A stretch of DNA of 64,000 nt from Rhodamnia argentea (lineage: Eukaryota > Streptophyta > Magnoliopsida > Myrtales > Myrtaceae). Of this stretch, positions 2,458 to 18,163 are shown piece after piece; position 1 is the stretch's first letter; the number at the start of each line of letters is the position of its first letter. The DNA lies in NCBI RefSeq assembly GCF_020921035.1, contig NC_063151.1, forward strand, positions 26,976,934-27,040,933, given 5' to 3'. The notes under the pieces were generated by a model. It was not told the origin of the DNA and did no database searches. It saw only the letters and a program-made list of their open reading frames with translations. The position numbers were made by a program, and so were the translations under genes.

Positions 2458-3428
2458 CGTTGCGCGTTAAAATCCTTCGACAAGGCTTTGCTGGTTATGG
2501 GTTCTAGGCCCAGATTGACTATGGCCCAAAGAAGGTTGCTTGCGTGAGAATCTTTTATCGAACTTAATCCGTTCGTTTTCCGAAAAGGAGTTCTGGGTCG
2601 CTTTTGGACTGAGAGTGTCAAATGCAATAGATTTACACGTAAGGGCGCGTTACAAACGGGCTTTCGACAACTTCGACGGCCCAATGCGCAATAGTGACGA
2701 TATGTTGACAGACTTCGACGTGACCCTGGAATTGAATCGACAGGATCGGGGAATAACGTGGGACACAATGCTGGAATTCAATCGACAAAGACCCGGACGA
2801 GGAATTATAGGACACAATACCGGAATTGAATCGACAAGTATTGGATGGATGGGTGAAGGGTGCAACACCGGAATTTAATCGACGGCATCGAACCTAAAGA
2901 GCGCACGGAATCTAATCGACGACACCTAACTCTGGATATGATACTCGCCGGAATTGAATCGACGACGGAATCTCAAAGCTACGGCCTAGGCTAGGCTAAA
3001 GGCTAAAGGTTAAGAGCTAAGAGCTAGTTTGATAATGCAGGTGTTTTGGATTTGTTGTGTGTCCCCGTATCTTTGCTATTGCGAGGTATTTATAGGCAAG
3101 TTCTTTAGTAAACCGCCGAGCGGTTTCTTCCTTTGGCCCCACGCTTTGCTTTTTTCCATAAGCCACGTGGAATGACGGTTTCCTAGTCTTCGCGCCTTTT
3201 CTTTTACCTCGTGGGGATTACCGCCAACCGCTTTGATCGTGGCCTCTCTCCGCGCTTTTCTTGTTCTAGAAGGAAGTGGCGCCGGAATTTATCCCGACAC
3301 GTGGCACCTTTCTGATTGAAACGTTCCTTGCTTCGGTGTTCCTTGCTTCAGTGTTTCTTCCCGTAGCCGATTATCGCTTCCTCACGTGCTTGTCACGAGT
3401 CTCTCTTGGATTATTTTGAGTGTCAACA
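2458..3428 (-). repeat. 3' LTR of the Tat element (971 bp)
   Basis: Near-identical to 17201-18158. The inner boundary ends GTGTCAACA on the + strand. The outer boundary reads CGTTGCGCG where the partner LTR has TGTTGCGCG, so the terminal TG/CA symmetry is lost by one substitution at 2458. A minus-strand TATA box (TATAAATA) lies at 3087-3094. The part at about 2725-2965 holds six spaced copies of a GGAATTnAATCGAC-like motif. Confidence 0.93.
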
Positions 3429-3442
3429 TATGCCCCCTTAAA
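3429..3442 (-). other. Polypurine tract (PPT) of the Tat element
   Basis: On the minus strand the sequence just before the 3' LTR reads TTTTAAGGGGGCATA. The AAGGGGG core is the expected plus-strand DNA primer site. Its position next to the LTR fixes the orientation of the element. Confidence 0.75.
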
Positions 3443-3695
3443 AGATGTAAATCGAAGATTTACCTTTTTAAAATATCTTCCTCTCGGTTTGGTGATCTCC
3501 AACTGTACAAATGATGATTACGCTCTCCTTTTGATCTCTTTTCCCGAAACGCAACCTTTTCGACTTCGTACCGTCCACCGGCCCTTTTTCACCTTGGTTT
3601 TTAAGGATCTTAAAAAAGCTCCCAATTGTCGTCTTTCTTCATCGCAGCTTTTCCCTTAAACCCTAAACCCTTTTCTCTGAGCATTCCAAACTTTC
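3429..3695 (+). promoter_or_regulatory. Leader-like region of antisense PMD unit 1 with a telo-box
   Basis: On the + strand, between the LTR and the first PMD reading frame, the sequence looks like a host gene leader: pyrimidine-rich, with the telo-box AAACCCTAA at 3658-3666, about 30 bp before the ATG at 3696. Telo-boxes are typical of plant 5' UTRs and proximal promoters. No convincing TATA box was found here. Confidence 0.45.
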
Positions 3696-6419
3696 ATGGC
3701 GACCGAAACTCCCGAGTTCCTTCCTCACCAACTCATCGCCCGCTTCGATGGGATCATTAATAGTGATGATGCTGATCATTGTTTTCTCAAGTTGTTGAAC
3801 TCTCGACGAGAGCACGCCGGTCTCATTCTCGGGCCTAGTCTCCATGATCACCACCATATTCCATCATCTCTTCGGTCTTGCTTTCCAACGCGGGCCGATG
3901 AGCGCCTTCCCATTCAAGCTTCTTCGCTAAAGGACATTTGGTCCATGCCGGCTCGGCGATTTAGGAGTTTTCCGTCATTTGATGACGGGGCTTATAATTG
4001 GTTCCAAAGGCTTCAAGAGGATACTCCAACAGTTGGCCTTTGGGAAACAGCGCAAATCGTGACAGCACTTGAGGTCAGCATGTTGACTCATGATTTGAAT
4101 AGAGGTCTGCTAGGGTCCGTTACAAGCTTTTGGTCCTACTCCACTAATTGCTTCTTCTTCCCGTGGGGTCCTATGTCCGTAACCCTTCTAGATACTTTCG
4201 CCATAGCTGGTCTCTCTCCTTATGGGGCCTCGATCAAGAATCTAGGAAAAACTAAGGATTGCCCCATTTCGACGATTCTCTTGCTTATGGGAAGTTCATC
4301 GATGCCCATAGTAAAACGTCCGGGGATGTTTCCTCGAGGAACGAACAGCCTTCCTTCTTTTCCGTCGTCGAAATATCTATTCTTTAGCCCAACACTCAAA
4401 GTGTCCAAGGACTATTACGATCTCGCCCTTCTTCTAGCAAAAGGGAATCTAGTTGCCCTTGGCCCTCTTGCTCTTGCATCTCTCGTATAGGAGTGTTTCT
4501 TATGCCGCTCGGCTAATGTCGAATTCCAAAGAGGATGGTGTATTGTCGTGGCCGCTCTGGATTCTTCAATCTTGGATTGCATTTTACTTCCCTTTCATGT
4601 TTGAGAGCGTCCCTTCCTTCAATCCCAACATGGTTCCCTTGAAGCTTGGCATACGACTACTCCAAGCTGTCCCCTTGAAGGTCCCTCGGTGATGTTCGAC
4701 CTTTTCGGTTCTTTCTTCGACAACTTCTATCTCTCGAGGCCGATCGAATAGATTTCTTTCCTTACCGTTCAGGTGAATTCGATTTTTGTTTTAACTCTCG
4801 AACCTTAAAACGGTTCAACCACCGTGATTTTTGGACCTTTGTCCTCTTCCCTCGGGACCTTCCAATCGGGCTATGTCTCAAGGGAAGGTACTATCCTGGT
4901 TTTGAACCATATTCCCCCCAATACCGCGCTAGGCAGTTTGGCCTTCGACAAGCAAAGGCCCATGCCCATCCCTTATCTCATGGATTTCCCATCGATGGAC
5001 AAGAAGATCTATAACATCAAGATTGATGGGCCGTTCACCTCGCCGTGCCGAAATTACCACCATGATGCATCGGCGGTTTTCGTGGGATATCCCAACAATA
5101 CTTCGCTCCAGCCGGGCGTGACTTCCGAGTTTACGACCTGGTGGACGTCCTTTGCCTTCGAAAGCCCTTTCGAAGATGCCATCTCATCCATCCTCCAAAG
5201 CAGTCGGATACTGCCCTTCGGTCCCGCTTTGAAGAAAACTGGGAAAAAGGGGTGCCACCGTGAGCCCTTTCGATTGGTGGTCGCAAACGTCCGACGATCG
5301 TTTCGTGTGGGTCTTTTTCTTCCCCGGGTCTTCGCAGATATCGGCCCGAGGTGATTTTTACTTTATTTTCGCCGTTAGGTGATGATTCCGACGACGGAGC
5401 CGATGAGGAGACGCTCACTTCTCTTAAACGGCGAAAGATGATAGCAAAGAAGAGCAAATCTCCGGTGGAATCTCCGATAGTCCCTCGGCCTGTCGAAGCG
5501 TCTCCAGCTGTTTGTCCCGAAGATCCTTTGGTAGATCTTGATCCACCCATCGGGGTGTCTAGCAATATTGCCATTGCCGAGGATCCGTTTGCACCCGCGG
5601 CTCCTTCGCCTTTAGAGCCTCAAGGGGAACCTATTTCGATGACCCTTGCTATTGTCCCGACCCCGATAGTCGAAGCTCCTTTGATAGCTGAAAGTTCCTC
5701 AACACCCGAAGATCCTTCATCTCGCGGATATTATCTCGGGATCTTCCCCGTCGCTTCTCTTCTTCGTCGCCCATCGAAGACGTTCAAGCTCATCCACTGG
5801 CTCTTCTCGCTCTTCGGATCACCCGAGTATGCCCGAATCAAGCGGCTCACCCGACTCGTAGATTTTCAGCAACCGGGAATCATGTTATCTTGCTCCCTCG
5901 ACCTTGTTCATTCAGGGGTAGCCTCTTTTGTTGACAACCCATCGAATATTCGAAACATCCAATCCGTGATGGAGTGGTCGGTCAAAGAGGAAATCGCGCG
6001 AAGCTTCCTCAAGGCTTAGTCCGCCGGCCGAAAGCATTCTTGGAGCACTTTCCTACTCCCTTCATGCATTTTCGACGTTGTCGGGACAAGGTGCTTGCTC
6101 GTCGAACTTTCCCGATCGGCTCTTTTCTCCCGGCCCCGAGACCCAAGAGGCGAGGCAACTTGTAACTCAAGGAGAACAGTCCCTTCAATCCGCCGTCGAC
6201 GAGCTTGTCGCTTTAGATAAGAAGGAGGCTACCCTGGAGCAACAAAGGTCGGCGATAGAGAGAGAACTAGAGGAGACTCGAAGTCGGCGATCGACAAGAT
6301 TTCTCTCGTCGATCCTCTATAGAAGATCAACCGAAAACGCTCGCGGCTTCGTTAGAAGAGAGGAAACGAGCCGATTGCGCTCGGGTTATGCAGGCAGAAG
6401 TAGACCGACGTCATACTAG
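3696..6419 (+). pseudogene. Antisense PMD (plant mobile domain) gene, unit 1, degenerate
   Basis: The first frame (3696-4490) shows PMD-type blocks: an ILGP-like motif, a SFPSFDDGAYNWF block, and SFWSYSTNCFFFPWGP followed by TLLDTFAIAGLSP, which resembles the PMD phrase for a plant 'aminotransferase-like' region. Homology continues in another frame (4453-4692, PLWILQSWIAFYFPFMF) and again at 4824-5354 (PMPIPYLMDFPS, WWTSFAFESPFEDA). The gene is therefore broken by at least one frameshift near 4450-4490 and a stop near 4690. A low-complexity acidic/proline-rich tail (5351-6019) and a coiled-coil-like segment (6078-6419, EQQRSAIERELEETRSRR) follow. PMD proteins such as MAIN/MAIL1 act in gene expression and TE silencing, and PMDs are known passengers of plant transposons. 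Lies opposite to pol. Confidence 0.72.
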
Positions 6420-6631
6420 GAATATGTACATAGATAAAAATAAGAAGTTTGAACGTTTACTCGTGAACTCGCTTGAGGGAATCAAGGCGGCTTTGTATCC
6501 CGATTTTCGTCAATAAAATTTCCCCTTCTTTCTCCTTATTTTCCGTATTGCATTCTCGCCACGATCCATGTAATTGCCCACGTCCGAGTAATCGCCATCA
6601 CAATCCCGAGTCGGTTACTTCCAAAATCCCT

Positions 6632-6639
6632 TATAAATA
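6632..6639 (+). promoter_or_regulatory. TATA-like box upstream of PMD unit 2
   Basis: TATAAATA sits 15 bp before the first ATG of unit 2. This spacing is too short for a normal leader, so the true start would be a later ATG (for example near 6762), or the box is fortuitous. A tiny upstream ORF starts at 6640. Confidence 0.3.
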
Positions 6640-6653
6640 ATGATTGCCTCCAA

Positions 6654-8170
6654 ATGAACTCGCTATCAAGTTCACATGAGTACCCGCGCAGCCTTCCCCG
6701 CTTGTCGCGCTTCGACGCCTTCTCTCATAATGAGGCCAAAAGGGAACTTTCCTTATCCTTCATGGATCACCAACCCAAGAATGGTCACATAATTTTGGGT
6801 CCGCATTTCACAAGTTTGCCACCTCCCTCTTTACTGATTAATTGCTTTCCCCACTTCTCCGAAGAAGTCTTACCCTTCGAGCAATCTATTATCTGTGCCT
6901 CGCTTGGTCAGTCGAGTAACTATAGATTTTCTTCATACCCAAGCTTCGACCATCGGTTTTACAACCGGTACAAACGATTAGAAGGAGAAGCGGCTACTAC
7001 GTGGGCACGAGCCGGGATAGATGTCCTACCGTCCTTTTGCGGTACATTCATTGATCCTTCGGAGTATGGCCTCGTCGGTAGTTTGTGTTGCTTTTGGTCA
7101 CCATCATCGAACTGTTTCTTTTTGCCTATTGGTCCAGTGACCCCTACCCTTCTTGATATTTGGTTTCGACTCGGTCTTTCTCCATTTATCGATGGTGACC
7201 CTCAACCTCCGGACGACCAATTTTCCCTTGATATGTCCCGCCGCCTTGACTCGCCATATGGCGAATTCATGGATCGCCATGCTAAACCTTCGGGACCCAT
7301 TCTTCTCGAGGAACATACAGCCTTCATTTTATGTTGGCTTTGCAAATATGTCTTTTGTCTCCCCACATGTCGAATTTCCTCAGAATTTCTTGATATGGCC
7401 TATGAACCGGCATGTGGTGTTGATGTTGGCCTAGGCCGAATGTTCCGGGCTGCATTATATCGGGGATTGTCGGATGCTCAATCTTCGCCGACGAATAATC
7501 ATCCCGCCCCCTTTTCGGGTCCTTTATGGATTCTACACCATTGGGTCCGAATGTACTTTCCTCATATGTTTTTTGATCAAGCGCTCACTTTGACGATCGA
7601 ATCCTCGAAAAGGGATGATGTACCCATGGCGTTCAATCGGGCCCTTCGCTGTGCCCCCGACAATCTTACCGCTTTCGATGACTTCCTTACCGAACCGTTG
7701 TCTCTCACCAGTTTTGATTTCTCCAGGCCGCACGTCGATAATGATATCTATAGCTCCTCCAGTGCAGATCCCGATTCTTGTCTTTTCTGGATGAGCGTGT
7801 TAGCCCCGGCTGACTTAGCTATGAATTTGTCCGGTGGGGGCAAATTCTCATCGAGACTTGAGATTTATAATCCTCATTATTGTGCTCGCCCGTTCGGGCT
7901 TACTCGGGGGATTCCAATGCCGGTGGTGTATTCCATGAATTTCCCTTTCTCCGCCGCAAGAAAGAGGTAACCGACATGATGGGCCATATCGAAGTTGTTC
8001 ATGCCGTTCTCGGGCGCTTTGTATTTGTCCGCTCTCTCGACCATCCTTGTAGCACCTCATTTTTCGACAAGTGGTGGCTCTCCTATCGCTCCTCTTTGTT
8101 CTCAACCAATCTGCAATGGACGTTCTCTCGAAAGTCCGTCGACACTCATTGGGCTTATCGCATCCTCTAA
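6654..8170 (+). pseudogene. Antisense PMD gene, unit 2, nearly intact core
   Basis: A 438-codon open frame (6654-7970) runs in antisense to pol. It contains the same ordered blocks as unit 1: HIILGPHF, YPSFDHRFYNRYKRL, CFWSPSSNCFFLPIGP with TLLDIWFRLGLSP, PLWILHHWVRMYFPHMF, and IPMPVVYSMNFPFS. The C-terminal WW block (FFDKWWLSYRSSLF) continues in another frame (within 7880-8170), so a frameshift lies close to 7960. The two units differ far more from each other than the two LTRs do, so they are distinct PMD paralogues carried together and not a recent duplication. Captured host genes and element-encoded factors are both possible origins. Confidence 0.72.
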
Positions 8171-9319
8171 GAAGACTCGCTTCTTTCATTATTCCGAGCA
8201 TTATACTTGAACAACCAATTGATGAAGGTAAACCCTCCGTTGTTATAAGCAATCTGATAATGAAAGTGAGTACTCCCCGCATTCTTGCTTGATGTAATTA
8301 TTGATCCGACCTTCTTCCCGGATGATTCACCGGCTTCTGATGGCCGCACGGATGACTTACCCAACAAATCGTGGGTTGTTCATATGAACATGGCGAGTGC
8401 CTCGGCTGGCCCATCGAATACTCTTCGCTGCGACTATTCATACCTTCGCGGCAAGTGGTCACGCCCGCATGACTTACTGGGAGGAGGATATGCCTACATA
8501 TGTAACCAAGCGCCGATCGAGGATGAGATCAAAGCTCTCCTTGCTTTTCCGGCCCATTTGCCCTATCCGGTCCAATGTCGTGCCCTTGGATTTGCCATTA
8601 ATGAACTTTTCCTCACATTTAGCTCGACTTTACGGTCCTTCGAGGATAAGGCGGCGTGAACTAGCGATTATCGACAAGTTGGAAACAGATTCCCTTCTTT
8701 GCCGACAATGAGCCGGCTTATCGACGTAGTGTTCTTGATACCCCGGAAAGTGACGGTTGTACCACCCCGCAAGTACTATCTCGCACAATTGAAGGCAATC
8801 AAACAAAGAAGAGGCAATTTGCGAATCATCGCACATTGATATGATGCAAGCCGGTCATCGAAAGGAGGCAATTGTTGACGCCAATTGCAACAGTGAAATG
8901 CTACTTCATAGTTTCGTCTTGAGTCTTGAACAGACGTATTGTAGTCCGCTGTTGCTAGTTCCATATTAATGCCACCGTCCTTATCATCTTGTTCTATCAT
9001 TGAACCGCCGGTCTTAGTGTCAATTCTCCAAAGTTCATCATGACGCGATCTTCTCAGATCACCCTTTTCCATGCGGCATTTAATGAAAGGCGTCGTTTCC
9101 GATTTCTTCTTCTGAATTCAAATCGTCATGACGGTTCGTCATGGTTAATAGCCAGCGGAAAACCCGCCACTTGCGCCATTATGGTTGCTTATGTGTTTCA
9201 CCAATCGCGATATACCTTCTCGCCTCGATAACCGTCCACTATCCTTTATCGCCTCGATCGTCGGAAGGTCGTGGGCGGATACTCAAGATCGTGGGGCGAA
9301 CCGTTCCTTGGCCTTCATC
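8171..9319 (+). other. Degenerate tail region of PMD unit 2
   Basis: Only short open frames (such as 8285-8659 and 8397-8711) occur here. By position they correspond to the variable C-terminal tail of the PMD unit, but I could not recognise a domain. The last 150 bp before 9320 is promoter-like. Confidence 0.35.
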
Positions 9320-9408
9320 TATAAATAGGGTTACTTGCCCGGAGTGCGTCTTCATCCAAACCCTTCTGTCCTTTGATTCTTAGAGAAAACTTCCTCAAAG
9401 CCTTAATG
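9320..9408 (+). promoter_or_regulatory. Candidate core promoter and leader of a third antisense unit
   Basis: A TATA box (TATAAATA, 9320-9327) inside CTATAAATAGGG is followed 79 bp later by ATG at 9406, with a short leader between, the normal plant core-promoter geometry. The ATG opens only a 23-codon frame (MERASSSTASSPPTYF...). Confidence 0.45.
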
Positions 9409-10148
9409 GAGCGTGCTTCTTCTTCTACGGCTTCGTCTCCCCCTACATACTTCAGCCGTGAGTTCTCGCCTATCTAGAGGGAGATTATCTCCCTTCTGAG
9501 TTACACCTACACCATGCTGGTGGCGAAACCGCGAGCCCTCGATAGACTTCACAACCTGCTCAACCGTTCTGCGCCTCAAAATCTTCTCTCCGACCATCCG
9601 TTCCGGTCGGACTACGAAGAGTTTGTCACGCTCTTCGACTACGGGCCGGATAAGTTTCACGGAATCGCGACCATGTCTCAAGATGATCTCACCGAACATG
9701 AAGTTTGGTGTAAGATCGAAGAGATTGAGAACGGAGAAGTGGTGCACAAGGAACTCTGCAACGTCCAAGAAGCTCTCCATGCCTCTCATGCTAGCGTCCT
9801 TCAACTTCGGAACATTGTTTCCGACCGCCCGACTACCAGCCCGGCGACACACTGCGAAGGCCTCTCAAGGAAACCGAGCAACGAGAACATGAACGGGTGA
9901 AGCCTCGTGAGACCCGTTCCTTGGCTTCCATTGGGCCCCCTTTGGAGGGTCTCAAGGCCATGTTGGACTCTACCAATGGTCTTCTCGTAGGTCGAAAGAG
10001 CACCTTCGCCGGGCCGGAGGGCGAGAAGGACAGCCGGAGGCGACACTGGAAGAGTTGGTCAAGCTCATCACCGTGCGCGGAAGAGAACGCCAAGTTGGAG
10101 TGCGGGCGCGGGGCTTCGTGGTTCGTTTCAGTGAGCACTTCCAAGTGA
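9406..10148 (+). pseudogene. Third antisense reading unit of the retrotransposon, unidentified
   Basis: It starts at the ATG after the promoter at 9320, stops early, and then continues as a 128-codon frame (9514-9900) with a charged, helix-prone segment (LTEHEVWCKIEEIENGEVVH) and a further short frame (9897-10148). No family was recognised. By composition it resembles the coiled-coil tail of PMD unit 1, so it could be a detached PMD tail. It runs tail-to-tail with integrase. Confidence 0.35.
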
Positions 10149-10149
10149 A

Positions 10150-10240
10150 GGTTTGCTGGGGCGAGCAGAAGAGAGAGAGGAAGGAAGAGAGAAAGAGAGA
10201 GAAAGAGAGAAAGAGGGGGAAAGAGAGAGAGTGAGGGATG
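10150..10240 (+). repeat. GA-rich low-complexity tract between the antisense ORFs and pol
   Basis: Purine-rich GAGAGA/GAAAGA sequence separates the end of the third antisense unit from the integrase stop codon. Confidence 0.7.
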
Positions 10241-10271
10241 TATTGAAATTTTATGAATGAATTGGATTTTC

Positions 10272-11534
10272 TCACTCCTTGTCCTCTAACGCTTCCCGCA
10301 TTTCCCACATCGATGGGTGGAACTTTTTTAAATACTTCCCGTTGATTGAGCGTTGTAGTTCTCTTCCATCAATTTCCATTACTCGATATGCATTTCCCGG
10401 GAGGGCGTCTACTATCAAGTATGGTCCTTCCCACTTCGACGACCATTTGCCGAATTTTTCGCTGTCCAGGTTCATAGGCAAAATAGTCTTCCACACCAAG
10501 TCTCCCACGTCGAAACGCTTGGCTTTCGCGTGTTTGTTGTAAGCCTTGGCAACTCTTCGCTTCTGAGCCATCAATTTTTCCAGTCTTGTGGCTCGGTTTT
10601 CTCCCAATTCATCAATATTGGTGTACATCATTTCATCGTATCGCTCTTTAGCCATACCATCCTGGAGTTTTACTCTCAATGATTGCACCGTAATCTCCAG
10701 GGGTAACACGGCCTCTTGTCCATACGTTAGCATGTAGGGAGTGACCCAAGTGCTTGATCTTTTGGAAGTTCGATAAGCCCATAACACCGTCGACAACAAT
10801 GAGTCATATTCCCTTAGGTTGTCCTCCAAATGTTTTTTAATCAATCCGATGATTATTTTGTTGGAGGCTTCTGCTTGGCCATTAGCCTGAGCGTAATAGG
10901 GCGTCGAATGAATCATCTTGATACCCCTCGACTTAGCAAAGTCTCGTATTTCTTGGCTCGTGAAGACCGTCCCTTGGTCAGTAGTGATAGTCTCTGGAAT
11001 TCCAAATCGATGAATAATTCGCTCTTCGATGAACTCCCTAACCGTTTTTTGTGTCACGCTTTTATATGACGCCGCTTCAACCCATTTTGTGAAGTAATCT
11101 GTGGCTACTAAAATGAAACCGTGCTTCTTCGACGAGGGAGGATAAATTTTCCCTATTATGTCCATTGCCCAACCTCGAAATGGCCATGGCTTAATAATTG
11201 GGTTCATCGGTGCGGCGGGTACTTGCCGGATTGGTCCATGCCTTTGGCACGATTGACACCCCTTCGCGTAATCGATGCAGTCTTGGGTGATTGTTGGCCA
11301 AAAATACCCATGTCGTCTTAACAACCACTTTGTTTTCAATCCAACGTGATGTGCACCACGTATCCCTTCATGGACTTCCGTCATGACTAGCATTGCTTCC
11401 TTCCGCCCTAAGCACTTGAGAAGTAGTCCGTCGATTGTCTTTCGATACAACTCATTGTCGATCAACAAATATTTTAAGGCTTTCCTTTTGAAGTCCCTAC
11501 CGCCAGAACCCGGGTTCTTCAAGTAGTTTACCAA
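10272..11534 (-). CDS. Retrotransposon integrase (Tat pol C-terminal part), intact frame
   Basis: An uninterrupted 420-codon frame covers the integrase. Seen: a zinc-binding HHCC region (H55, H62/H63, C93, C96 in GCQSCQRHG) and the catalytic DDE core with D125 (WAMDII), D186 (TTDQGTVF) and E222 (ANGQAEASNK), giving the canonical 35-residue D-E spacing. A GPY/F-like module (KWEGPYLI) lies near the C-terminus and no chromodomain follows. Integrase joins cDNA ends to host DNA and makes the 5-bp target duplication seen at the flanks. In a working element this is cleaved from a polyprotein, so 11534 is a frame edge and not a true start. Confidence 0.9.
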   Translation of the reverse strand: MVNYLKNPGSGGRDFKRKALKYLLIDNELYRKTIDGLLLKCLGRKEAMLVMTEVHEGIRGAHHVGLKTKWLLRRHGYFWPTITQDCIDYAKGCQSCQRHGPIRQVPAAPMNPIIKPWPFRGWAMDIIGKIYPPSSKKHGFILVATDYFTKWVEAASYKSVTQKTVREFIEERIIHRFGIPETITTDQGTVFTSQEIRDFAKSRGIKMIHSTPYYAQANGQAEASNKIIIGLIKKHLEDNLREYDSLLSTVLWAYRTSKRSSTWVTPYMLTYGQEAVLPLEITVQSLRVKLQDGMAKERYDEMMYTNIDELGENRATRLEKLMAQKRRVAKAYNKHAKAKRFDVGDLVWKTILPMNLDSEKFGKWSSKWEGPYLIVDALPGNAYRVMEIDGRELQRSINGKYLKKFHPSMWEMREALEDKE

Positions 11535-11579
11535 AGGGGTTCTCCAATCTTGTTGGCCGCCGGTTTCTCCTTAGCTTTC

Positions 11580-12080
11580 GGATCGCTCAATCATCATTAC
11601 CCGGGCATCTATTGATGGTAAGGTTCTTACTTGAGTAATGATGTGGTCCGCTAATTCCTTCGATATACGATATCCCGACGCCATCCGAGCCAATTCATTA
11701 GCCTCTCGAATTTTCACTCCTCTTGACATGGATTAGCTCGTATTCGACGAACTTCGACAACAATTCTTTTGCCAGGTGGTGATGCCTAATAATGTTTTCA
11801 TTCAAACATTGATACTCACCATTTAGCCGTTTGATCACCAACTGAGAATCGCCCTTCACTTTAATTGACTCGATCCCCATGTCAATTAAAACATTCGACC
11901 CACGATCGGGGCTTCATATTCGGCTTGATTATTTGAGCATTCAAAGTCAAGCCCGATTATGAGTTTTGTTTTCTCGTCGAAAAGGTGATATGACCATGAT
12001 TCTCGCGCCCGCCGAACCGGATGCCACCGACCCATCGAAATATAATATCTAAGGCGCAATACCCGGATAATTTTCATCAT
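11580..12080 (-). pseudogene. Second RNase H (aRNH-like) domain of the Tat element, frameshifted
   Basis: Two open pieces (11886-12080 and 11698-11880) encode ECSNNQAEYEAPIVG and then SIKVKGDSQLVIKRLNGEY, a full RNase H with the expected E, D and downstream helix. It lies between the retroviral-type RNase H after RT and the integrase. Such an additional RNase H is described for the Tat lineage. A break near 11880 and an altered tail make this copy non-functional as written. Confidence 0.78.
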
Positions 12081-12251
12081 CCTCGACTTTTAAACCCGAA
12101 GGGTATTCAAGTAATGAAATCGGATATTGCCTCGCCCTTTTATCGCTTTGAGCGGCACATAAATCGATCGATTTCTATTAGAGTAAACGCCCATTTTGCA
12201 ATCCGGCCCCTAATGATTGGCCTGGACAACATGTACTTAATCACGCCTGTT

Positions 12252-13485
12252 TTACAAATTACATGTACCGTAGTCGGCAACATATAATGTCGTAATTTTG
12301 TACAAGGCGTAGTACGTTGATAAACATAGTTTTTCGATGGACATGTATCTTGTCTCGGCATCGTTGAGCATCCTACTTAGGTAGTATACGGCCTGCTCTT
12401 TCCCTTTGTCGTTTTCTTGAGCCAGCATACTCCCGATCGTTATATCAGCAGCCGATAAATACAACTTTAATGGCCGTCCCGCCTTTGGTGGCGCCAACAC
12501 TGGTGGCTTGACGAGATACTCTTTTAACCCGTCGAAAGCCACCCGATGTTTTTCTTCCCACATAAACTCTCGCTCATTCTTCAATTTGAGCAACGGGGAG
12601 AAAACTTCGATTTTTCCCGAGAGGTTAGTTATAAAACGCCGCAAGAAATTTAATTTCCCGATTAACATTTGCAACTGTTTTTTATTATCGGGAGATGGTA
12701 ATTCTGAAATAGCCTTAGCTTTGTTCATATCTACTTCTATACCTCTCTTATGAACCAAAAAGCCAAGAAAGTTGCCAGCTTTTATCCCGAAAGCGCATTT
12801 CAAAGGATTCATTTTTAACTTAAATTTGCGTATTCTTTCAAAAACTTGCTCTAAGTGGTCCGGATGACTTACCTGGTCCGTCTTGACGATGACGTCATCG
12901 ATGTAGACCTCCATAAACTCCCCAATCATATCGTGGAAGATATAATTCATTGCCATTTGATACGTAGCACAAGCATTCTTCAAACCGAAAGGCATGACGA
13001 CCCATTCGAACGTACCAATGGCCCCGGGGCATCTAAATGCTGTCTTGTGAACATCCTCCGCCGCTATGAATATCTCGATTGTACCCGTAATGCCCGTCCA
13101 TGAGGGACATCATTTCATTATTGGATGCCGAATCGATCAACATATCGGCGATGGGCATCCGGTACTCGTCTTTAGGGGTGGCCGCATTAATGTCTCGGAA
13201 ATCAACGCACACTCGGAGTTTGCCGTTCTTCTTCTTGACAGGCACGATATTTGACAACCATTCGACATACTTTGCTGGTCTTATGAATCCGGCTGAAAGG
13301 AGACGCTCGATTTCCTCCTTAACTTTAAGGATCACTTCGGGAGCGAATCTTCTAGCGGCCTGTTGGTGTGGTCGAAATCCTCTTTTAATTGGTAATCGAT
13401 GCTCAACTATGCTCCTCGAGAGTCCAGGCATCTCATGGTAATTCCAGGCAAAGCAATCCTTATATTTTTTCAATAGGTTTACCAT
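12252..13485 (-). pseudogene. Reverse transcriptase and first RNase H, one frameshift
   Basis: The N-terminal RT half is open at 13033-13485 (SNIVPVKKKNGKLRVCVDFR, LMDGHYGYN). The C-terminal half is at 12252-12995 (MPFGLKNA, catalytic YIDDVIVKT, and the RNase H start at PPVLAPPKAGRPLKLYL). Between them the frame shifts near 13050-13065, in the codons just after GYN, by what looks like a one-base insertion. Upstream and downstream coding sense is otherwise preserved across the break. The RNase H piece degrades after about 12290. Copies LTR RNA into cDNA in working relatives. Confidence 0.85.
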
Positions 13486-13489
13486 TTGA

Positions 13490-14339
13490 ACCTTGTATCT
13501 CCGATCGAGTAGTTGGCTTACATAAGTAGGTTGAGGACAGCCTCATCTCCGAGATTGACCTCTTCCAATGGGTCTTGAGCTTGAATTACCTTGTCGTCCT
13601 CCTTAATTGGTGAGTCTTCAAAATCTAAAATGCCGTCCGCAAGCTGTCGGGCTTGATCACTTTGCTCGCTTCGTAGGCCGCATACCTCTCAGCCGAGGTT
13701 TTGCGCAAATAATCGACTTTCCATCGGAAAACCGGGTCGATCGGTTCCACCGGTTCCTTTCTTGGGATCCACTCGGTACTCCCTTTGTCGAAACGGCAGA
13801 ATGCAATATCTCTTGGGTCCACTTCGAGCGGCTTAGATATGCGAAGGCAATCATCCCAAGCATCACTTTGTCCCGACCGGATATACGGGTCCAGGTAACA
13901 CAAGTCCGGGGATTTGCTTTTACATATTCCACTTTGTCCCCATTCCAAAATGCTAGCATCTGGTGAAGTGTCGATGGGACACATTGGTTTCCATGTATCC
14001 AATCCCGCCCCAACAAAGAAGTTATAAGATCCGTCGGCGTCGACAACGCAGAAAGACGTCCTCGATGTTTTAGATCCGACGGTCGTCGGCGACATATACT
14101 CCCTTTACTTCAGTAATTTCGCCAGTGAAATCAGATAACTGTATATTCGATGGGATTATTTCGTCATCATTCCTCCCGATTTTCCTGAAGAAGCGGTATG
14201 GAATGAGATTTAACGTTGAACCGCCATCCACCAAGATTACTTTCATTACGGCCGCCCGTTGATCTTGGCATTTATATTGAGCGACCTCAAGTGATTTGAG
14301 AGATCTTCCATGGGTTTCCGAATTCCATGGTCTCTTCAT
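13490..14339 (-). pseudogene. Retroelement protease and linker of the Tat polyprotein
   Basis: The 14070-14339 frame holds an aspartic-protease active-site variant, VDGGSTLNLIPY, as in other Tat-type elements where DGGS replaces DTG/DSG. The following frames (13625-14095) encode the linker to RT, rich in acidic and aromatic residues. Frame changes near 14090 and 13625 break continuity. Confidence 0.7.
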
Positions 14340-14434
14340 CGCTGAAGCAAAACCGAGCCCCTTCCTTTTCTTGCGTCGTTTCTTTATAGCCGCCGTCAGC
14401 CGAGGTCGACTCGAGTTGAAACTCGTGTGGTAAC

Positions 14435-17147
14435 TTAACTCGTACCATACAAGAGCTTAGGGGGAAACCGACACGCTAGCAGGGGTTTTAAATCGAGATT
14501 TGGATGCGGATGTTTTCGTGTCTTTGTACCCTTGTCCTCTTTTTCTTGAGTCGGGTGTGTCTCTTCTCGGTCGTCGTCGCCAAACAGATTTCTCGGCCTC
14601 CGCAGTTTGGTGTGGTTAGGAGCCGCCGCCATCGAGTCATGACCGGGCTGGAATCTCCCGTTGCCGTAGTATGCGGACCCCTGTTCTTTCTTTGCACCAT
14701 TCTCTTCTGAGTTCGGGTCAAAATTTTCTCCTTTTCTTGATCTTTCGTCACCTCATACCATGACCCTTCTACGGGGTTGCTTGGTATCTTAAGAGTGCGT
14801 CGACGATGTGGCTCATGAAGGCCTTGTCGAAAATCTCTGTCGAACTCCTTTCCCCATCCATAGTGGACTCTTTCTTGGGGATGTAGGGTTGATGGACCAT
14901 AGCTTACGTAATAATCAAACTTGCCACTTGGCTCACCTAAAGTACCAATTGTAGGGTCCCCTTCATCGTATCTCCGCTTAAACGACTTATAAACTCTCCG
15001 ATGATTGGAACTTCTTCGAGGTCCGGCACTTTCAATGTAAAAAAGCGTCTTATTGCTATGACTGGTTTGACCGCTCTTTTGGTACCCTTCTTCGTGTGTA
15101 CTCATGTTTCCCAATTTTCGCCTGCAATAAGCGCATAAATTTGTTGACGTATGGCTTTTACTCGACTTCTTTAAAGATACCATTCCAGTCATTACTGGAA
15201 AAGGATCCGCGTCTACATCCATCGGGGGTTTCCCTTTGTCTTCAGCAAATTTGATCTTTCCTTGTCGAATCGCTTCTTGAATGTTCTTTTTAAGGACTAG
15301 ACAATCCGATGTGTTATGGCTCCATGAGTGATGCCATTTGCAATACTTCTTCCCCGCTAATTCTTCTTTGGACGGTATCTTCGCCCCTTCCGTCGCCCTG
15401 ATTTGTCCGTCGGCCCAATGATATGTCGAAAATTTCTTCTCGCCCGATTCGCATCGAATGAATAATACATCGCTTCTTTTGCTTTAGCCATTATAGTTGA
15501 CTTTTCTTTCATCCTTGTCGGCTTCAGTGCTTGGCAAGTGTATGGCTTGTGATGGTTAATTGGGCGACGGCCACCTCGACGGGCTCCGTTGATTCTTCGT
15601 CGAAATCGGGTGGCTCGACAAAACTTACATCTCCTCTTCGGGTGTGCCTTTTGTCTTTTTCCTTAAGCAGACTTTCGTACTTTGTTGCCATCGTGGATAA
15701 TTCGAATAGATCCGCACATGGATGACCCACCATCCTATCTCGTATTTCGAATTTCAACCCGTTGAAAGCGAACTCGCCGAATGTTTTTTCTGGTAAAGGA
15801 ACTAAACATTTGTTCCTAGCCCGTTTAAACCTTGCAACAAACCGGTCGACCGTCTCGTTTGTCATTTGCTTCATCGTCGACAAATCTGCTACCGACAAGT
15901 TCGACACCGCTCTTTGAAACCGGCCATGAAACAAACGCTCCATCTGTTCCCATGTCAACACCGAATTGGGTGGTAATGCAAGATACCATGTAAAGGCTGT
16001 TTTCGACAAGGATAATGGAAAGAGCCTTAATTTCCAGTGATCCACATGTGTAGCATCCCCACATAGTGCTAGAACACGGTTGATATGTTCATACGTGGAC
16101 CGATCATCTTCCCCAGTAAAAAGTGTGAACTCGGGTATTTTAAACCCTCTTGGATATGGGATCGTATCCATCCAATCCGGGTATGGTTTTCGGTAAACAT
16201 TAGCCCGGTATCCTACCATTGGATCAATGTATACGGGTGTCCGGTCAAACACCGGCCGATGGTACTGCGGTTGATATGGCATTTGATATCCAGGTTGTGG
16301 AGGATGATATATGGGTTGCATAACCGGCTGAAACATTGGCTCGGGGACCTGGTGGTTGAAGGGCCCGATTCATCTGTCGATATCCAGGTCGTATGGCCCG
16401 GTGTCCATACTGTCCTTGCCCCCTGGCTTGGGGTAATTGATCTTGCCCCCTAGCCTGCCATTGCCCCCTAAAGGGTATTGCCCCCTGATTTTCGACAATC
16501 ATGGGTACCGGTTGTTCATTGATAGGGACAGGGTTATGTTGGGCAGCTACTTCCCGACGAGCAATATTCTCGTCTTGTCGAACAGGGTGTCCCGGAAGCA
16601 TAACAAGATCCGCAGGTATATCTTGTCGAATAGGATGTCTAGGGAACATACCTATGTTCGCATTTACCGGGGGTCCGGGTTCGTTGGCCGGTAACGCCTC
16701 TCTCTCGTTGCGAGAATCCGCGGAGGTGCTAAAGGCTGAGTATTCTCGTCTCCGTAAGGCCTATATTTGGCGGTGTTGTTCTTGGTAAACCGCCACTTGC
16801 TGCTGGTACGAAACCATTCCCTTCCCGAGCATGAGGTGGGTTAATTGTAATCCCATGTTGTCCTCGCAAAGACATTCGTGATACGTGTTGATGATTAATG
16901 GCCCGACAACCTCGGTCATCCGCCGTACCATGTGATCAGCAAACTCGTTCCGGACTTCTTCGATGGTCCGCCTTATCGATGTTAGCATGACAGGCGTCAT
17001 TTCGGGATTTCTCCTTGGCTCCTCAACGTTCTGTCGAGAGATCTCGACGTCCTCTTGATGGGCCGTGGATGACTCCATTCGTTGTATTTCTTCCCGGGGC
17101 TCGTCTCCACCACCGTCTATGTTGTTACGTCCTCGTGTGCGTGGCAT
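14435..17147 (-). pseudogene. Gag polyprotein region of the Tat element, interrupted
   Basis: Coding starts at 17147 (MPRTRGRNN), 28 bp inside the PBS, and is stopped at about 16758. Frame 16245-16649 is low-complexity and proline/glutamine-rich. The 15524-16336 frame holds the retrotransposon gag domain (GFKIPEFTLFTGEDDRSTYEH, KTAFTWYLALP, FHGRFQRAVS). Near 15300-15350 a zinc-knuckle-like Cys/His pattern (KYCKWHHSWSHNTSDC) follows in another frame. The 14488-15222 frame is the basic gag-protease linker (EGSWYEVTKDQ, LTRTQKRM). At least three breaks separate these pieces. Confidence 0.78.
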
Positions 17148-17174
17148 AGCACTTCTCTCGAACCGACACCAAAT

Positions 17175-17192
17175 GTCCCACCGGGCGTGCCA
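17175..17192 (-). other. Primer-binding site (PBS) of the Tat element
   Basis: Eight bp inside the 5' LTR the minus strand begins TGGCACGCCCGGTGGGAC. On the + strand the complement ends in CCA like a tRNA 3' end, as a PBS must. The tRNA species was not identified. Confidence 0.8.
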
Positions 17193-17200
17193 AAAAAGAT

Positions 17201-18158
17201 TGTTGCGCGTTAAAATCCTTCGACAAGGCTTTGCTGGTTATGGGTTCTAGGCCCGGATTGACTATGGCCCAAAGAAGGTTGCTTGCGCGAGAATCTTTTA
17301 TCGAACTTAATCCGTTCGTTTTCCGAAAAGGAGTTCTGGGTCGGTTTTGGACAGAGAGTGTCAAATGCAATAGATTTACATAGAAGGGCGCGTTACAAAC
17401 GGGTTTTCGACAACTTCGACGGCCCAATACGCAATAGTGACTGTATGTTGACGGACTTCGACGTGACCCTGGAATTGAATCGACATGATCGAGGAATAAC
17501 GTAGGACACAATGCTGGAATTCAATCGACAAGACTGGACGGGGAATTATAGGACACAATACCGGAATTGAATCGACGGTATTGGACGAGATGGGTGAAGG
17601 GTGCAACACCGGAATTTAATCGACGATACCGAACCTAAAGAGCAGACGCCGAAATCTAATCGACGACACCTAACTCCGGATATGATACTCGCCGGAATTG
17701 AATCGACGACGGGAATCTCAAAGCTACAGCTAGGCTAGGCTAAAGGCTAAAGGTTAAGAGCTAAGAGCTAGTTTGATAATGCAGGTGTTTTGGATTTGTT
17801 GTGTGTCCCCGTATCTTTGCTATTGCGAGGTATTTATAGGCAAGTTCTTTAGTAACCGCCGAGCGGTTTCTTCCTTTGGCCCCACGCTTTGCTTTTTTCC
17901 ATAAGCCACGTGGAATGACGGTTTCCTAGTCTTCGCGCCTTTTCTTTTACCTCGTGGGGATTACCGCCAACCGCTTTGATCGTGGCCTCCCTCCGCGCGC
18001 TTTTCTTGTTCTAGAAGGAAGTGGCGCCAGAATTTATCCCGACACGTGGCACCTTTTCGATTGAAACGTTCCTTGCTTCAGTGTTTCTTCCCGTAGCTGA
18101 TTATCGCTTCCTCACGTGCTTGTCACGAGTCTCTCTTGGATTATTTTGAGTGTCAACA
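17201..18158 (-). repeat. 5' LTR of the Tat element (958 bp)
   Basis: It has intact TG...CA termini (TGTTG at one end, CAACA at the other) and pairs with 2458-3428. The two LTRs differ by scattered substitutions and a few small indels, for example a shortened repeat near 17535-17560, so the insertion is not brand new. LTR length and internal GGAATTnAATCGAC-like repeats are shared. Confidence 0.95.
17831..17838 (-). promoter_or_regulatory. TATA box of the 5' LTR promoter
   Basis: On the minus strand GCCTATAAATACC is a strong plant TATA box, conserved at 3087-3094 in the other LTR. Transcription of the element would start about 25-35 bp downstream, toward lower coordinates, marking the U3/R border. 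Confidence 0.7.
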
Positions 18159-18163
18159 AGCGC

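Follow-up and report, generated by a model that had tools for sequence, protein, structure and literature searches.

The 64,000-nucleotide stretch of the Rhodamnia argentea genome analyzed here (contig NC_063151.1, positions 26,976,934 to 27,040,933; referred to below as the window) contains a long terminal repeat (LTR) retrotransposon, which lies on the minus strand and occupies window positions 2458 to 18158. The 6.8 kb between its integrase (10272) and its 3' LTR carry three plus-strand open reading frames (ORFs) antisense to gag-pol: two related genes that code for PMD proteins, termed unit 1 and unit 2, and a third, ORF3. As the frames of the window copy are broken, ORF bounds were taken by alignment from other copies fetched from the same genome, with the following layout.

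3696 to 6513, plus strand: unit 1, with a PMD in its first half and a charged C-terminus, frame broken in the window copy (PF10536, alignment bounds, and the ratio of replacement to silent variation, pN/pS)
6676 to 8294, plus strand: unit 2, a PMD gene and paralogue of unit 1, frame broken in the window copy (PF10536, 33% identity, pN/pS)
8295 to 9405: gap, an intron or spacer, in which no plus-strand frame shows a significant codon signature
9406 to 10148, plus strand: ORF3, with a charged C-terminus, its end approximate in the window copy (ATG in 18 of 18 copies, pN/pS of 0.25)

Both units match the Pfam PMD profile (PF10536, curated cut-off of 34.9 bits) when single open frames of the window copy are scanned, with 46.3 bits (E of 4.4e-12) for unit 1 in the frame at 3681 to 4487 and 65.3 bits (E of 7e-18) for unit 2 in the frame at 6477 to 7967. 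The original prediction had placed two PMD genes here, on the plus strand opposite pol, and had named this profile search as the check; the prediction is borne out. Fuller coverage comes from copy L031, which has longer open frames and in which the units score 91.5 and 85.8 bits; unit 1 covers the whole domain (profile positions 2 to 346 of 347, E of 7.8e-26), and unit 2 (E of 4.3e-24) matches in two stretches, the best of which spans profile positions 18 to 190. An alignment of the two units from the same copy has 33% identity over 521 columns (E of 2e-59), and the ordered blocks common to both are thus far beyond chance; the predicted motif blocks hold in both units except that unit 2 reads NCFFLPIGP rather than NCFFFPxGP. 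With 33% identity between the units set against an LTR pair that is about 95% alike (Kimura two-parameter distance of 0.047), the two are old paralogues, as had been proposed, and have diverged well beyond the divergence among copies of the element. Pfam matches to PTase_Orf2, APG6_N, Rx_N, RecG_N, and Ty3_capsid fall below cut-off and were not used, a profile search of PDB returned a single chain at an E of 0.025 that was taken as chance, and a search of IMG/VR contigs for relatives gave 36 pattern matches, none of which was confirmed.

The cassette recurs across the genome (347 Mb in 74 contigs). Twenty copies were fetched as the best unit 1 matches after the window's own, not chosen for recent insertion, and 17 of them retain unit 1, unit 2, and the integrase in the same order; L017 and L019 carry deletions, and L018 is without the remaining parts within its 10 kb. 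Genome-wide lists, for which only the best candidates were scored and which include the window copy and a few copies split into two fragments, hold at least 143 matches to unit 1, at least 87 to unit 2, and at least 99 to the integrase. Of the 87 listed unit 2 matches, 81 are preceded by a unit 1 match on their own strand at a distance of 1.5 to 8 kb, and in 75 of these pairs the spacing departs from that of the window copy (2796) by no more than 200 bp. In seven listed pairs one or both units are less than 66% identical to those of the window, with both at 48 to 62% in three of them, and the cassette layout is older than the split of the subfamilies. Of 97 listed integrase matches (two fragments, C1:8639154 and C4:27123351, were left out), 57 are accompanied by both units, 25 by unit 1 only, 2 by unit 2 only, and 13 by neither, so that one unit or both are found at no fewer than 84 integrase-bearing places. 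The predicted long-term retention of the units in relatives therefore stands for most copies (17 of the 20 fetched, 81 of the 87 listed unit 2 matches), these 13 having neither unit among the matches listed. One mosaic copy, C9:13466889-13474798, has a unit 1 that is 56%, a unit 2 that is 85%, and an integrase that is 95% identical to those of the window, which suggests recombination between subfamilies.

Unit 1 codes for 940 amino acids (aa) in L031, where the frame holds three one-base linker insertions that are absent, or nearly so, from 16 of 18 aligned copies; unit 2 codes for 539 aa in L031, and ORF3 for 248 to 287 aa in six copies. Unit 1 begins 267 bp from the LTR, 159 bp separate it from unit 2, and approximately 1.1 kb (window 8295 to 9405), which may be an intron joining unit 2 and ORF3 or a spacer, separate unit 2 from ORF3. 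An acidic stretch in unit 1 is followed from aa 577 by a basic KRRK-x3-KKSK sequence, of which KRRK is kept in 18 of 18 copies and the following KKSK in 17 of 18. Basic stretches of this kind are read as nuclear signals, and the motif suggests nuclear entry of a predicted unit 1 protein. ORF3, which lies within the span of the original prediction and was not named there, has no Pfam match above cut-off. Its reading as the tail of unit 2 was tested through homology to the unit 1 C-terminus, and hhalign found none (probability of 0.9%). A purine-rich plus-strand run at approximately 10160 to 10234, between ORF3 and the integrase, translates as repeated K, R, and E.

Start and stop codons of the ORFs are kept in 17 to 18 of 18 copies, which is weak evidence for coding at 89 to 97% identity between copies. 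In an alignment of the 17 retaining copies and the window copy, two-state sites were sorted by their rarer state into single variants (one copy, mostly postinsertion changes or errors) and shared variants (at least two copies, for the most part passed down from the active lineage). In the PMD half of unit 1 the shared variants comprise 123 silent, 71 replacement, and 0 stop changes (pN/pS of 0.27), with 121 of 194 at third positions; ORF3 has 60, 30, and 2, respectively (pN/pS of 0.25, compared with 0.87 for its single variants), with 58 of 92 at third positions; and the integrase, which serves as a control, has 91, 40, and 2 (0.23). The corresponding counts are 71, 79, and 5 for the C-terminal half of unit 1 (0.54) and 87, 102, and 1 for unit 2 (0.55). 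Purifying selection on the PMD units, which the original prediction had named as a check, is therefore found in both, and is weaker in unit 2. Single variants give 0.60 for the PMD half of unit 1, 0.76 for its C half, 0.74 for unit 2, and 0.59 for the integrase, all below 1, and the contrast between shared and single variants is significant for the PMD half of unit 1 (P of 3e-5) and for the integrase (P of 2e-5); in the first part of unit 1 the single variants are biased too (P of 2e-3).

Reading the unit 1 PMD DNA wrongly abolishes the signal, with shared-variant ratios of 2.15 and 1.79 in the two other plus-strand frames and 2.06 on the sense strand. Leaving out sites in CpG context gives 0.20 for the unit 1 PMD half, 0.61 for its C half, 0.53 for unit 2, and 0.11 for the integrase. 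In the gap at 8295 to 9405, pN/pS is 0.8 to 1.3 over the three frames, without codon-position bias. A scan in 300-nucleotide steps finds a favored codon phase that broadly tracks the ORFs: one phase across the first 2 kb of unit 1 and little in its C-terminal third, a different phase in unit 2 (weak in two of five steps), none clear in the gap, and then those of ORF3 and the integrase. Taken separately, the linker and C-terminal pieces of unit 1 show no significant codon-position bias, and neither does the tail of unit 2. Because shared variants show purifying selection and the gap lies near 1, the antisense ORFs are proteins kept by selection, rather than recent passengers or a source of antisense RNA alone.

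The relation of the units to host PMD genes was examined in a tree of 17 rows (eight of unit 1, five of unit 2, and four genic host PMD rows of the same genome, the last of which we take to be PMD-B and PMD-C), which is unrooted, with rooting for drawing only. Unit 1 and unit 2 each form one group (98/99 and 100/98), and a branch separates these 13 rows from those of the host (100/98, with long-branch warnings given), such that the units do not group with these host genes. Dropping either host pair leaves the same three groups, with unit 1 then at 97/99 and 94/99. By this placement the units either are old paralogues within a PMD type other than that of these host genes or were captured from it in two events. 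PMD genes are plentiful elsewhere in the genome, with at least 150 matches listed (the controls of that search had no match). They include a tandem cluster outside the element and about 2 Mb from the window (C2:29030914-29056372, L001 to L005), in which L001, L002, and L004 have open frames of 706, 637, and 525 aa and L003 has one stop within its match, and a stretch at C5:20147435-20149480 that holds a 773-aa open frame, two tandem PMD front halves, and a PMD rear part with one stop.

The element that carries the cassette has the following further features.

2453 to 2457: target site duplication AGCGC on the 3' side of the element, an identical 5-mer lying at 18159 to 18163
2458 to 3428, minus strand: 3' LTR, 971 bp, direct repeat with 17201 to 18158
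10272 to 11570, minus strand: integrase (PF00665, PF17921)
11698 to 11913, minus strand: second RNase H (aRH) of RVT_3 type (PF13456)
12252 to 13109, minus strand: reverse transcriptase and RNase H (PF00078, PF17919)
15524 to 16369, minus strand: gag (PF03732)
17175 to 17192, minus strand: candidate primer binding site, 8 nucleotides inside the 5' LTR end, read from the sequence
17201 to 18158, minus strand: 5' LTR, 958 bp, direct repeat with 2458 to 3428
18159 to 18163: target site duplication AGCGC on the 5' side of the element, identical to 2453 to 2457

On the sense strand the Pfam order is gag, reverse transcriptase with RNase H, a second RVT_3-type RNase H, and integrase. An additional RNase H within the Ty3/gypsy pol order is the criterion for the Tat clade (PMC6317226), and PF13456 sits between PF17919 and PF00665 here; this domain order supports assignment of the element to the Tat clade of Ty3/gypsy, in agreement with the original prediction. 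The LTR divergence dates insertion of the window copy to 1.8 or 3.3 million years ago under assumed rates of 1.3e-8 and 7e-9 substitutions per site per year, respectively.

Several parts of this organization have precedents. Ogre elements share the second RNase H between RNase H and integrase, and 57% of them contain a PMD (Neumann 2019, PMC6317226), as does the extra ORF region here, a feature that is frequent in Ogre and not its strict definition; the accessible parts of that report do not give the number and strand of the PMD ORFs. Retand elements likewise have a long region between pol and the 3' LTR, often with more than one antisense ORF (Vicient 2025, PMC11963269), and the three ORFs described here occupy the same position. 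They differ in content: 57 of 104 Retand antisense ORFs contain Transposase_28, which is found in an antisense ORF of 97% of Retand clusters, and PMD is not among the domains listed in the available portions of that study (PMC11963269), whereas the present element codes for PMDs. No Transposase_28 (PF04195) was found in the element frames scanned, and a genome search gave no matches, the controls of the same search likewise having none. PMDs encoded by Gypsy elements form two clades, PMD-A1 and PMD-A2, which are encoded only by such elements (Ikeda 2017, PMC5418596), and PMDs are present in Gypsy consensuses of ten species (PMC9289625, which cites Steinbauerova 2011 for PMD in Gypsy elements); the accessible text on PMD-A1 and PMD-A2 does not describe two PMDs per element or their strand. 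Earlier publications thus already cover the occurrence of PMDs in Gypsy elements and of antisense ORFs in Tat elements, as well as the idea of counter-silencing. Two antisense PMD ORFs in one element, or selection on them, were not found in the literature searched, and Steinbauerova 2011 may already show antisense PMD ORFs.

Of the PMD proteins encoded by host genes, MAIN and MAIL1 interact with one another and with the phosphatase PP7L, and both silencing and the expression of certain genes depend on them (PMC8616336, PMC7156037, PMC5418596). Like the two units, these Arabidopsis PMD-C proteins are paralogues within the PMD family, and the two interact; they differ in being host genes, and the host rows from which the units separate in the tree are those of R. 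argentea, not of Arabidopsis. That PMDs made by transposable elements could counter silencing has been suggested previously (PMC8616336; for MULE elements, PMC5418596), and VANC21 of VANDAL21 (PMC8616336) is an element-encoded anti-silencing protein with a role of the kind considered here, albeit a different protein, from a DNA transposon, whose action has been reported where that of the units is a proposal.

Starting from the observed domains, family layout, unit divergence, and codon-level selection, our tentative and leading interpretation, held at somewhat less than an even chance, is that the three ORFs form an antisense accessory cassette, with two anciently diverged PMDs and a charged third protein, that is under selection and acts in trans for expression of the element. 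Antisense transcripts would start in or beside the 3' LTR and run against gag-pol, the PMD proteins would enter the nucleus, with the conserved basic stretch of unit 1 contributing, and once there would permit expression of the element through a trans effect on host chromatin or transcription, perhaps in competition with a host MAIN/MAIL1-type PMD complex. Nuclear regulation of the element's own expression seems the most likely role because of the basic stretch, the roles of host PMDs, and the published counter-silencing suggestion. A more specific form, in which a PMD-A1 and a PMD-A2 lie side by side, work as a pair in the manner of MAIN and MAIL1 with the third protein as partner, and blunt PMD-dependent silencing, is rather improbable; if true, it would tie the PMDs of elements functionally to the host silencing pathway.

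A number of observations weigh against an accessory cassette acting on element expression. Unit 1 is 34 to 35% identical to unit 2 and 23 to 28% to the four host PMD rows, and with identities that low a partner common to the units and host PMDs is not assured; the fold prediction for the unit 1 PMD from a 17-row alignment was too poor to use (predicted local distance difference test score of 38.6). Selection is weaker on unit 2 (0.55) and on the C half of unit 1 (0.54), for which the contrast between shared and single variants is not significant (P of 0.09 and 0.10, respectively). The 13 of 97 listed integrase matches with neither unit include all four at 66% integrase identity or less, so that the evidence for the cassette does not extend to the wider clade. 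Near-full-length open frames, counted from the usual ATG (at least 900 aa for unit 1, 520 for unit 2, and 240 for ORF3), are present in only 1, 3, and 5, respectively, of the 17 fetched copies, and none has all three open. Nearly every indel within the ORFs, whether single or shared, is frame-shifting, so that indel length failed as a test of coding, which counts against the proposal unless some of the indels are assembly errors.

The main competing explanation is that the same selected proteins serve replication, through nuclear entry of the integration complex, choice of target, or export of RNA, and not silencing. Selection and the basic stretch fit it equally, and regulatory or import roles have been proposed for antisense ORFs (PMC7264820, PMC11963269); host PMD proteins, in contrast, act in gene expression and silencing of transposable elements, which favors a chromatin role, and the present data hold no link from the units to integrase. 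We consider a replication role plausible, if doubtful.

It is unlikely, in our estimate, that these are once-useful genes now in decay, with selection in the past and the proteins made by no current element. The lack of a fetched copy with all three ORFs open, the abundance of frame-shifting indels, some of them shared, and the window LTR age of 1.8 to 3.3 million years by assumed rates all speak for decay. Against it, all three ORFs are free of frame-shifting indel events in L030 and L032, a single such event is present in each of L023, L033, and L034, and the 20 copies sampled were not selected for recent insertion. In addition, recurrence of one-base indels is not confined to nearest relatives, and the cases outside them may reflect recurrent slippage or assembly errors in repeats, so part of the damage may be assembly noise. 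The one-base indel load is very uneven among copies of similar divergence, as in unit 1 (window 3696 to 6513), where the window copy has 26 frame-shifting events, L025 has 19, and L029 has 16, and L023, L030, L032, L033, and L034 have none; given the recurring indels, the frame breaks of the window copy should be read with care. Should the indels be real, either a large number of copies spread with the help of others while their own accessory genes did not work, or decay of these genes is under way.

That antisense RNA rather than protein is the working product, with double-stranded RNA tuning or silencing the element, has been proposed generally for antisense ORFs (PMC7264820), and phased small interfering RNAs arise from PMD genes in tea (PMC10673657); as the sole explanation it is very unlikely and is largely refuted by the codon-position signature, which is present in three antisense ORFs and two frames and absent from the gap, since an RNA function alone does not give it. 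Recent capture of host PMD genes by one element, a process of a kind known for LTR elements (PMC7264820), is exceedingly improbable, being contradicted by the tree, in which unit and host rows are separated (100/98; unrooted, with long-branch warnings), and by the presence of the units at the same place in many diverged copies.

PMD proteins are plant silencing factors that are related to retrotransposon proteins. The presence of two diverged PMDs, together with selection at the codon level, indicates that the PMDs matter to this element as proteins. The cassette sequences can be used for testing both counter-silencing and the domestication scenario, and sorting variants into shared and single classes offers a simple way to tell, in other Tat elements, which antisense ORFs are real genes and which arose by chance.

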